A model generated the notes under the pieces. It had not been told where the DNA came from and did no database searches. It saw only the letters and a program-made list of their open reading frames with translations. A stretch of 64,000 bases of DNA. Origin: an uncultured Acetatifactor sp. (GTDB lineage: Bacteria > Bacillota > Clostridia > Lachnospirales > Lachnospiraceae). Made by a program: the position numbers and the translations under genes. Shown piece after piece: positions 36,451 through 61,492 of this stretch; position 1 is the stretch's first letter, and each line of letters starts with the position of its first letter. The DNA lies in contig CANPXL010000009.1 in NCBI GenBank assembly GCA_947586055.1, forward strand, positions 1 to 64,000. The letters run 5' to 3'.

Positions 36451-37215
36451 CTATACCTCTTCCTGTTCCGCCGCTTCCTCAATATCCTCGATCTCTCCGG
36501 ATTCGGTCTCCGCATCCTCCGTATATACGGCTTCGCCCTGATTGGCTTCAATCACAGCGTCCGCCATCTTGGCCACGATCAGTTTCACGGCCCTGATTGC
36601 GTCGTCGTTCCCCGGGATAATGTAATCCAGTTCCTCCGGATCACAGTTGGTATCTCCGATGCCGATCAGCGTAATGCCCAGCGCGTGCGCCTCCTGAACG
36701 CAGATCCTCTCCTTCTTGGGATCCACAACAAAAATGGCGTCGGGAACTCTGGTCATATTCTTGATGCCGCCAAGGTTCTTCTCCAGTTTTTCCTGCTCTT
36801 TTTTCAGCGCGATGACTTCCTTCTTGGGAAGCACGTCGAAGGTTCCGTCCTCCGCCATCTTTTCGATTGCGTGCAGTCTGGCAATCCGGGAACGGATCGT
36901 CTTAAAGTTTGTGAGCATGCCGCCCAGCCATCTCTCGTTCACATAGAACATCCCGCAGCGCTCAGCCTCGGTCTTTACGGCGTCCTGCGCCTGCTTTTTC
37001 GTACCCACGAACAAAATAATGCCGCCCTGCGCCGCGATCTCGGACACGGCCCTGTAGGCCTCGTCCACCTTCACCACCGATTTCTGCAGATCGATGATAT
37101 GGATCCCGTTTCTCTCGGTAAAGATGTAGGGAGCCATCTTGGGATTCCATCTTCTGGTCTGGTGTCCGAAATGCACACCCGCTTCCAGCAGCTGCTTCAT
37201 GGAAATAACGCTCAT
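36451..37215 (-). CDS. rpsB: 30S ribosomal protein S2
   Basis: A 254-residue S2 protein with signatures [20 protein letters not shown], the central [17 protein letters not shown] and the C-terminal [21 protein letters not shown]. The acidic C-terminal tail ([20 protein letters not shown]) is an extension often seen in Clostridia. The ATG at 37215 follows GGAGG; a longer in-frame extension upstream overlaps the promoter and is not real. The gene has its own sigma-A promoter although it follows the fla/che operon as in Bacillus subtilis. Confidence 0.97.
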
Positions 37216-37363
37216 TTTACTACCTCCGTTTGGTTTTTCTTCCGCATCTCCCCGGGGAGCGGACGCTCCTACCGAATCCGCGTCAGAATCCGGTCTTCTC
37301 CGCCGGCTACCTGTCCAAGGCACCACCGGCGAATGGGAGTGCGTGTTTTTTCGCAACATCCGC

Positions 37364-37392
37364 ATTATAACATACGGGAAATTCTCTGGCAA
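37364..37392 (-). promoter_or_regulatory. Sigma-A promoter of rpsB-tsf
   Basis: TTGCCA and a perfect TATAAT with a 17-base spacer and a TG three bases before the -10 box. The leader to rpsB is about 140 bases, long enough for the S2 autoregulatory structures known in other bacteria, though I cannot demonstrate one. The -35 box lies about 25 bases from the nearby repeat element. Confidence 0.88.
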
Positions 37393-37416
37393 GAGCTTTT
37401 TACAACTTTTCCCGGG

Positions 37417-37576
37417 CACAGTTCAGCCGGCAGCTGGACACAGCAAAAAATCGTGCTCGCACGAATTTTTTGCTGTATCCAGCTGCCGAGGGAGCGCCAT
37501 TTTATGAGCAAAGGCAGGCGCGCAGCGCCGGACAGCGCGCCAGCGCGGCTTTGCGAATGGCGCGGGCTGAACTGTG
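37417..37576 (+). repeat. Dispersed repeat element with terminal inverted repeats (copy beside rpsB)
   Basis: A 160-base element bounded by perfect 12-base inverted repeats (CACAGTTCAGCC and its complement). It contains a palindrome of about 59 bases (37429-37487) with arms of 28 and 29 bases and a CTCG loop, then a conserved GGGAGCGCCATTTTATGAGC and a GC-rich module ending GGCTTTGCGAATGGCGC. The same parts occur between flgE and flbD. A short plus-strand frame MSKGRRAAPDSAPARLCEWR starts after a GAGGGAG site. It looks like a MITE-type or REP-like element. It occupies the main part of the 400-base gap upstream of rpsB. Confidence 0.85.
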
Positions 37577-37615
37577 GCAAAGTCGGGTTTCAGTTCGACC
37601 GGCAGCGCCCCATTC

Positions 37616-38203
37616 CTACGTAATGATATATATGATGTCCTCCCAATCCGCCCCCAGAGGGATATCATAGGTCCCGGTGCGGATCGACTTGGAATATCCG
37701 TTGTCTACCAGATAGGCATCAAATTCCCGGGCATTTTCCACAAGTCCCGCCTCCTGCAGGCGGCGGCTTACCGTGTAGGAATTGTCGCCGCGGACAATGA
37801 CGATCCTGACGGTGCCGACATCCGACGGCTGCGCCGTCTCCGTCTCCGCGTCTTCCGGCGGCTGCGCTGTCTCCGTCCCCGCGTCTTCCGGCGTCCGCGG
37901 CGTCTCCGTCCCCGCGTCTTCAGACGGCTGCGGCGTCTCCGTTCCCGTCCCCGCAGGCGACGGCGAAGGAGAAGCGTCCAAGGCCGCAAAAGAGTCGGAA
38001 TCGCCGCCTCCCGACGACGTCCCCACATTGGACAGGCTCAGAGAACCCGGATCCACCATTCCCAGCTGCAGCGCCTTGGCGCGGACTTCCGCGTCTGTCA
38101 TCGGTTTCCCGGCGTCCATCGTCAGTCCCATGATCAGCGCCGTCAGGATCATGCCTAATCCGACGCCCCTGACAAAGCCCTTCAGATAATATCTACGCTT
38201 CAC
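37616..38203 (-). CDS. MltG-like protein with only the LysM-like N-terminal module
   Basis: A 195-residue membrane protein. After a basic start (VKRRYYLKG) comes one helix, then a linker with 12-residue repeats such as EDAGTETPRTPEDAGTETAQ, then a C-terminal module (VRIVIVRGDNSYTVSRRLQ, FDAYLVDNGYSKSIRTGTYD) that matches the LysM-like N-terminal part of MltG endolytic transglycosylases. The catalytic YceG domain with its Glu is absent, so it should bind glycan or partner proteins rather than cut. The GTG at 38203 is chosen because GGAGG lies six bases upstream. It follows the DUF6115 gene and precedes the rpsB repeat element. Confidence 0.75.
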   Translation of the reverse strand: MKRRYYLKGFVRGVGLGMILTALIMGLTMDAGKPMTDAEVRAKALQLGMVDPGSLSLSNVGTSSGGGDSDSFAALDASPSPSPAGTGTETPQPSEDAGTETPRTPEDAGTETAQPPEDAETETAQPSDVGTVRIVIVRGDNSYTVSRRLQEAGLVENAREFDAYLVDNGYSKSIRTGTYDIPLGADWEDIIYIIT

Positions 38204-52102: not shown

Positions 52103-52178
52103 ATCCCGAGCTGCCCCAACCTTCCGAAGAAGCGCGGCCCTTTCCATCCCGAGCTGCCCCAACCTTCCGAAGAAGCGC
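52103..52178 (-). repeat. 33-bp direct repeat between flhB and flhA
   Basis: Two identical 33-base copies (ATCCCGAGCTGCCCCAACCT as the first 20 bases) occur with a 43-base period. The second runs into a perfect 12-bp hairpin, so the end of each copy supplies one hairpin arm. Confidence 0.88.
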
Positions 52179-61017: not shown

Positions 61018-61492
61018 CACAGTTCAGCCGGCAGCCGGATGCATTGAAAAATCATGCTCGCATGAATTTTTCGATGCATCCGACTGCCGAGGGAGCGCCA
61101 TTTCATGAGCAAAGGCAGGCGCGAAGCGCCGAACAGCGCGGCAGCGCGGCTTTGCGAATGGCGCGCGCTGAACTGGTCCGTTCCATGGCAAAGGCAGGCG
61201 CGAAGCGCCGAATCGCGCGTTGGCGCGGCTTTGCGAATGGCGCGCGCCGAAACTGGTCCGTTCCATGGCAAAGGCAGGCGCGAAGCGCCGAACAGCGCGG
61301 CAGCGCGGCTTTGCGAATGGCGCGCGCTGAACTGGTCCGTTCCATGGCAAAGGCAGGCGCGAAGCGCCGAATCGCGCGTTGGCGCGGCTTTGCGAATGGC
61401 GCGCGCCGAAACTGGTCCGTTCCATGGCAAAGGCAGGCGCGAAGCGCCGAATCGCGCGTTGGCGCGGCTGCGTCCGGCGCGCGCCGAAACTG
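61018..61492 (+). repeat. Expanded copy of the dispersed repeat element between flgE and flbD
   Basis: This fills most of the 629-base gap. It begins with the same CACAGTTCAGCC end as the rpsB copy, then the palindrome (61030-61088), then the conserved GGGAGCGCCATTTCATGAGC. Where the rpsB copy has one GC-rich module, here there are five in tandem. The first GCTGAACTG after module one corresponds to the right end of a single-unit element, so the array grew beyond that end. Several long frames are open across it because the repeat lacks stops; I do not call them genes. Confidence 0.88.
61111..61492 (+). repeat. Five tandem 79/80-bp modules in A-B-A-B-B order
   Basis: Each module starts AAAGGCAGGCGCGAAGCGCC. 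Type A (79 bases, starts at 61111 and 61270) continues GAACAGCGCGGCAGCGCGG; type B (80 bases, starts at 61190, 61349 and 61429) continues GAATCGCGCGTTGGCGCGG. The A-B dimer of 159 bases is duplicated almost perfectly; the last B is truncated and altered (GGCTGCGTCCGGCGC in place of the usual GGCTTTGCGAATGGCGC). Confidence 0.92.

Follow-up and report, generated by a model that had tools for sequence, protein, structure and literature searches.

A non-autonomous miniature transposon with a three-armed fold lies upstream of rpsB at positions 37417–37576 (+ strand) of the window, the whole 64,000-nucleotide stretch of DNA analysed here; it measures about 164 bp when the outermost two bases at either end are counted, and it encodes no gene. 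The marks of a MITE are found in its family, an element of gut bacteria that is short, has inverted ends, many copies and 8-bp duplications of constant length, and is missing from the corresponding site of a relative. The reading preferred here, at a probability of about three in four, is that of a miniature transposon with IS66-type ends served in trans, with a selected + strand fold, and a divergent sister of the Clostridiales-1 RNA. In the mechanism proposed, an IS66-related (ISBst12-like) transposase would cut the ends and insert the element in trans into intergenic DNA, the + strand would act as a folded RNA (or, less likely, as folded single-stranded DNA), and the terminal stem would be merely the DNA binding site of the transposase. 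As a working guess, the RNA might act within or on transcripts around the insertion and make insertions tolerable. The element offers a case in which selection on a folded strand (inner hairpin) can be distinguished from selection on DNA ends (terminal stem) within one small unit, and it provides a partner enzyme that can be tested.

Structure, copies and genomic context

The 12-base perfect inverted ends described by an earlier sequence-only reading were confirmed: the left repeat, CACAGTTCAGCC at 37417–37428 (+ strand), which is also the terminal stem P1, is answered by GGCTGAACTGTG at 37565–37576, the family forms being GTAACAGTTCAGCC and GGCTGAACTGTTAC, with the outermost bases of the left one degenerate in this copy. 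Two arms lie between them, one a long hairpin and the other carrying two small hairpins. The long hairpin, P2 (37428–37488, + strand), has a CTCG loop at 37456–37459 and one bulged A; its pairing is kept while its sequence drifts. This is the palindrome beside rpsB noted by the same reading, which is present and spans 61 bases instead of about 59, and which gives its own reverse-strand BLAST match at 90%. Beyond the palindrome the element also includes arm P3 (37494–37563, + strand), which has an outer stem (37494–37499/37558–37563), an inner stem (37508–37513/37549–37554) and two small hairpins at 37517–37529 and 37535–37546 that are indicated by the predicted fold and by covariation. A conserved ATGAG at 37504–37508, invariant in the 32 aligned rows, stands opposite GCGAAT at 37553–37558 in an internal loop that possibly contains tandem G-A pairs. 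As RNA, the window copy has a predicted folding energy of −100.7 kcal/mol; shuffles average −61.2 (z = −10.7), and none of 200 does as well. The tip of P2 (37451–37464) resembles a terminator on both strands, with a 5-pair stem and then a T run; two terminator-like structures were found against a mean of 0.7 (sd 1.0) in shuffles, a number indistinguishable from chance.

The element starts 25 bases upstream of the −35-like hexamer of a site resembling the rpsB promoter (37364–37392, − strand; TTGCCA, 17 nt, TATAAT), a match to consensus only. The rpsB coding region is placed at 36451–37215 (− strand) within an open frame of 36451–37419, its start codon being chosen by eye and its name taken from the look of the protein and from the earlier reading. 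The sequence that adjoins the element on the right (37577–37612) looks like a further left end (CAGTTCGACCGGCAG); it is absent from the related genome G035 and is perhaps what remains of a second insertion. Two further repeats were seen in the window: four 33-nt units at 37816–37947 inside the rpsB-adjacent gene, encoding a Thr/Glu/Pro-rich stretch of its product, and two identical 33-nt copies at 52103–52178 (ATCCCGAGCTGCCCC...), 43 bases apart from start to start.

The sequence-only reading had asked for all copies to be collected and had named the finding of no others as the case against it; the source genome (2.8 Mb) gives 67 BLAST matches, a number that includes fragments, array units and the match of the palindrome to its own reverse strand, and holds 32 nearly full-length copies. 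Their ends are sharp, with an AACAGTT start in 20 of the 32 and a GAACTGTT end in 16, and the two bases that come next are frequently GT or GC at the left end and AC or GC at the right end. By plain DNA search, matches occur in 16 of 61 genomes (the source genome included), all of the same genus, and in none of 24 genomes from other families.

A second full copy at 61018–61177 (+ strand) is 89% identical to the one at rpsB. Exactly five stem pairs differ by compensatory changes between the two (TA→CG, AT→GC, GC→TA, AT→GC and GC→AT), with Watson-Crick pairing kept, just as first reported. Two more pairs have changed on one side only, with pairing lost or weakened (CG→CA and CG→TG), one mismatch has turned into a pair (CA→TA), and two outer terminal pairs are broken. 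The right arm and right end of this second copy continue into a tandem array with a period of 80 and 4.9 copies (61104–61492, + strand). The same portion is tandemly multiplied in several copies: right-arm motifs without the hairpin loop follow downstream in 8 of the 31 window-genome copies with enough flank and in 14 of 100 in the named set. One array on contig C17 ends in AACTGTTAC and then ATCATATG, with ATGATATG as its left flank (by eye), so the units appear to have multiplied within the element. Shortened forms also occur in the source genome, including an 87-bp derivative with an exact duplication, ATAAATAT, which may have been shortened after insertion. Two 38-bp derivatives consist of little beyond the two inverted ends (G000:C2:137298–137335, L069; G000:C12:42497–42534, L075).

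Genomic context was counted for 109 named copies and 27 of the 32 in the window genome; a crude frame caller places only one of each set within a long frame, the others lying between genes. Divergent upstream frames prevail (63 vs 34), and between genes of the same direction the antisense orientation is the commoner one, by 30 to 16 at named loci (P = 0.05) and by 38 to 20 when the window genome is added (P = 0.025). Within the window copy itself no promoter of the sigma-70 type was found; this and the antisense excess are awkward for a + strand transcript made by read-through.

Covariation and probable selection on one folded strand

In an alignment of 32 sequences, 22 from the source genome and 10 from relatives, 95.4% of cells pair, 34 of the 58 pairs show changes in both partners, and each of the five covariation measures is higher than in any of 500 shuffles. 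Cells changed on both sides number 147 against a shuffled mean of 37.6, and the earlier claim that pairing was kept while sequence drifted therefore holds. Sliding the structure by 1–3 columns lowers the pairing to 30–41% of cells, a control that favours the true position somewhat, since the structure was partly derived from the same sequences. Independent divergence of the two arms, the other case that had been raised against the claim, is seen in part: many window-genome copies differ by one-sided changes, yet over the whole set paired changes remain far above shuffles.

Wobble pairs give the fold a direction. When the palindrome was read from the loop outward on the + strand without an alignment, G-T pairs outnumbered A-C pairs by 102 to 29, with 44 copies leaning to G-T and 6 to A-C; this count dropped copies without the loop motif or with more than 15% other mismatches, keeping 60 of the 109 named copies and 24 of the 32 in the window genome. 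A model alignment of 90 copies gives 137 G-T against 35 A-C in the palindrome, parity in the terminal stem (30 vs 33) and 18 vs 27 in the other helices together. The difference between the palindrome and all other helices has a Fisher P of 3e-9, likewise with one copy per locus (82 of 90), such P values being overstated because the copies are related. Had the palindrome been maintained purely as duplex DNA, or by repair blind to strand, the two mismatches would be expected at equal frequency. The excess in the palindrome together with the parity in the terminal stem argues for selection on one folded strand, which is probably RNA. The sequence-only reading had offered selection or repair acting on folded DNA or RNA, and of these options selection is favoured by the G-T excess, which leaves RNA and single-stranded DNA unseparated.

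The signal differs among sets of copies. Window-genome palindromes are at parity, with 23 G-T and 19 A-C in 24 of the 32 copies and 22 vs 19 in a second count, and all helices in that genome give a weak 43 to 30. The 37 best-scoring named copies, of which 31 were usable, give 54 to 10, a difference from the window genome with P = 0.0008 in a post hoc comparison. No present selection is therefore visible on the window-genome copies, and since no transposase was found in that genome they look like decaying ones.

Paired changes may also arise without selection, if, at replication, template switching from arm to arm or hairpin repair overwrites one arm from its partner and so changes both sides of a pair at once. 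Palindromes that differ at only one or two positions fit such mutational upkeep, with 71 double against 18 single changes in 65 sequence pairs; however, only about three pair positions lie behind this excess, and at three or four differing positions single changes prevail by 95 to 54. A strand-blind process would treat G-T and A-C alike, but G-T prevails by 102 to 29 in the palindrome, and by 44 to 10 within the inner helices of classic Clostridiales-1 elements. The small hairpins of few pairs covary too. We consider this origin of the paired changes unlikely.

The folded form that matters could instead be single-stranded DNA or a cruciform extruded during transposition, with the hairpin read by the transposase or by host proteins. 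The ends do form a base-paired stem, the antisense orientation is the commoner one between same-direction genes, and G-T pairs stabilise folded DNA as well, more than A-C pairs do. Against this stand the absence of the fold from all 19 IS66-like partner loci and the sharing of a related fold by elements with different ends. In addition, the loop of the element, CTYG closed by G-C, is a stable tetraloop in RNA. A DNA fold of this kind is a minority possibility, and selection on a + strand RNA remains the preferred reading of the wobble bias.

Target duplications, empty sites and a candidate transposase

Target duplications of 8 bp with 7–8 of 8 positions matching flank 19 of the 109 listed copies, which are named and mostly Lachnospiraceae records, against a mean of 0.4 and a maximum of 3 in 1000 permutations. 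Carriers among the named records include the cultured species Eubacterium ramulus (L136, L162 and L182). In the window genome, 6 of 32 copies match at 7 or more of 8 positions, and the mean match of 3.69 exceeds the permutation maximum of 3.13; with a shift of one base inward the mean is slightly higher (3.78) and near-perfect repeats are fewer (4 vs 6). Most copies are without a duplication, 83 of the 109 falling below 6 of 8, and none is recognisable at the window copy itself (2 of 8 match), where it was lost or was never clear. The test used 109 of at least 176 model hits, leaving out hits truncated where a sequence ends, matches of the palindrome on its reverse strand, short hits and hits below about 69.5 bits, as well as a 115-nt, 105-bit hit (L200:5624), L107 (with the coordinates and score of L224, shifted) and two loci of the other type, L109 and L111. 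The 109 rows are partly dependent, at least two pairs (L191/L221 and L153/L170) looking like one insertion in sister records. The model searches covered at least 118 listed loci, 4 viral loci and 26 loci from an RF01699 search; among the matches listed, none of the chance hits in other phyla (L118, L121, L133, L143, L166 and L173) matches the model, nor do any of the viral contigs, which gave 4 hits of one pattern.

At rpsB, genome G035 has the same neighbours and is 89% identical there, with the element absent; the comparison is not exact to the base, as about 35 bases more follow the element on its right in the window genome. Genomes G013, G016 and G008 are also without it in the 480 bases read there by eye; in G033 a copy is present upstream of rpsB. 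A second candidate empty site, C17:52520 against G035, matched in pieces on two contigs and was hence unusable.

Searches of the window genome gave no IS66-type transposase. Relatives carry a divergent IS66-type group, 14 of 138 genomes of the genus matching the L258 protein at E 1e-15 or better. The element at L258/L267 (genome G017) has two genes and ends in GTTACAGTTCAG and GTTACTGTTCAG, also given as GTTACAGTTCAGTGA and GTTACTGTTCAGACC, with the duplication CCGATTTT on both sides, and its 535-aa protein matches PF03050 at E 3e-19. Protein P0001 scores 69.8 bits with PF03050, above the cut-off of 23.1, and thus has the IS66 DDE transposase domain; the NCBIfam IS66 equivalog gives 166 bits, below its cut-off of 180, for which reason the label IS66-related is used. 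A 106-aa frame beside the transposase (L258, 3043–3363, − strand), with no Pfam or NCBIfam match, possibly encodes a companion protein of the transposon.

Other members of the group share these properties in part. Two copies in G006, whose protein is 26% identical, have GTAACTATTCAG ends and perfect duplications, ATTTTTAT and AAAAAAAC, and another end type, GTTACTTTTCATGGGG with the duplication TTTGGCAA, occurs at L263 (114–2416), where both the 16-bp ends and the duplication are perfect, and at L270. Within the group, 8-bp duplications on both sides are confined to these four sequences (CCGATTTT, TTTGGCAA, ATTTTTAT and AAAAAAAC), the other loci having none. GTTAC[A/T]GTTCAG ends and a perfect duplication occur together in L267 only, to which the GTAACTATTCAG ends add two copies. 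L268 and L283 have both ends of the GTTAC[A/T]GTTCA type with no matching duplication, and L272, L274/L281 and L278 have one such end each. In a scan of the 30 PF03050 loci L237–L266 for ends that start with GT[A/T]A and lie 1.2–2.95 kb apart, some of these loci being short, a ACAGTTCA-type end was found only in L258, and L263 showed its other ends.

IS66-related transposons that make 8-bp duplications in relatives have ends matching GTWACAGTTCA of the window element, and an enzyme of this kind probably moves it, to judge from sequence. The partnership is built on the ends and the duplication length, since the element's own genome has no such transposase and its fold occurs in 0 of 19 partner loci. 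The interior does not look like a deleted insertion sequence, and the ends were borrowed or are shared. The sequence-only reading had proposed looking for a partner transposase, and a DDE-type enzyme with like ends does occur in relatives, with none in the window's own genome.

Two other accounts have very little to recommend them. An element of the REP/RAYT or IS200/IS605 kind, mobilised by a Y1 transposase, would likewise be palindromic, intergenic and present in many copies, but terminal inverted repeats and 8-bp target duplications fit a DDE enzyme, and Y1 elements are not known to duplicate their target on insertion; such an origin is most improbable. A fixed, non-mobile host regulatory RNA or upstream element of rpsB, suggested by the start 25 bases from the promoter-like site and by the G033 copy, is refuted as a general account by the absences in G035 and (by eye) in G013, G016 and G008, by the copies at many other places and by the target duplications.

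Kinship with Clostridiales-1 RNA and comparison with known systems

Clostridiales-1 (RF01699) is tabulated as a probable RNA from Clostridiales and the human gut that is probably not cis-regulatory (PMC2864571). At the curated thresholds of Rfam the window element is unmatched. In e-value mode RF01699 matches 6 of 8 copies tested, which comprised the two of the window and copies from relatives, over its full length (1–166 of 166) with 31.5–42.8 bits, the window copy giving 42.8 bits (E 9e-7), two others 39.2 and 35.5 bits and three more 31.5–31.6; the 61018 copy (L011) and L063 are unmatched. As the window copy is under the gathering score of 48, the element is filed as a sister subfamily of Clostridiales-1 and not as a member. 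In the reciprocal direction, the window-type model R1 finds 4 of the 21 loci L086–L106 (L090, L093, L100 and L101) at E 5e-6 to 4e-3. Both types share a CTYG-loop hairpin with a bulged A followed by an ATGAG...CGAAT arm, a motif present in 30/32, 96/109, 34/37 and 16/19 copies of four sets. They differ in an extra hairpin before the closing stem, which takes about 33 model positions in RF01699 and is represented by 1–2 bases in the window type, and in their ends and duplications, which are GTWACAGTTCA and 8 bp in the window type and TGATGCC and 5–6 bp in classic Clostridiales-1.

RF01699 gives three matches in the window genome with stricter filters. At E 0.01 it has matches in 48 of 101 genomes of the genus (24 over the cut-off), two or more of them in 35 of these genomes, and at E 1e-6 in 45 of 295 genomes of the order, from six families (41 over the cut-off); 14 control genomes gave none. 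Classic copies in G006 and G112 have TGATGCC...GACATCA ends. From 40 copies fetched in four genomes, both ends were recognised in 15, and exact 5–6-bp duplications flank 13 of these, against a permutation mean of 1.6 and a maximum of 6. Among 26 distinct classic sequences the inner helices hold 44 G-U and 10 A-C and the terminal stem 2 and 4. A loop-anchored count of classic elements kept 6 of 37 copies (G-T 4, A-C 5) and was uninformative, so that the alignment-based count is used instead. A search in G006 for a partner of the TGATG-type elements by end pattern with two mismatches gave more than half as many hits in the control, and nothing is concluded from it.

A third end type, CACCTGT, surrounds a related fold in the RF01699 match regions L109 1501–1689 and L111 1501–1693, which match the window-type model at E 2.5e-10 and 4.5e-11, respectively. 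L111 ends in CACCTGTGCGG...CCGCACAGGTG with a direct repeat of 8 of 10, and L109 has a direct repeat of about 10 bp, GAACTTTTTC, twice (both by eye).

With related folds between differing ends and duplication lengths, the fold looks constant and the transposon ends exchangeable, and a single fold seems to be carried by two or more transposition systems. Clostridiales-1 and its sisters may then be a passenger RNA, that is, one selected fold that spreads on the ends of unrelated transposons and is moved by different enzymes, with IS66-type ends and 8 bp, TGATG ends and 5–6 bp, and perhaps CACCTGT ends and about 10 bp. This wider reading is tentative, and we hold it with less than even confidence. 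If true, it would make the element a mobile RNA gene and not a dead transposon remnant. An RNA family known since 2010 bears, with its relatives, marks of transposition; mobility would explain the patchy and often multi-copy spread of Clostridiales-1, and neighbouring genes would tell little about its function. In open-licence literature, no report of an RNA of the Clostridiales-1 type moving was found.

By description the window element can be likened to the small mobile sequences of enterobacteria that go by the names RU and ERIC. Sequences of this type are likewise short, intergenic, non-autonomous and MITE-like (PMC2229807, PMC2759123). The bcr1–bcr18 repeats of Bacillus cereus resemble the window element in being intergenic and, in some cases, MITE-like; a conserved structure is reported for bcr10 and bcr18, and transcription for 84 of 165 bcr copies in one strain and 62 of 155 in another (PMC3446304). 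Compared with the IS66/ISBst12 group, the window element differs in being without a transposase and in its fold, which is absent from the 19 insertion sequence loci tested. ISDge4, of the ISBst12 group, is given GTGACTACTCAGCA and GTAACTGCTCAGCA ends and an 8-bp repeat (PMC12898284), and two Paracoccus IS66 elements are tabulated with the value 8, taken here as the duplication length (PMC3281130). The GTAACTGCTCAGCA (and GTGACTACTCAGCA) ends of ISDge4 resemble the family end GTAACAGTTCAGCC, and 8-bp duplications are common to ISDge4 and the window element.
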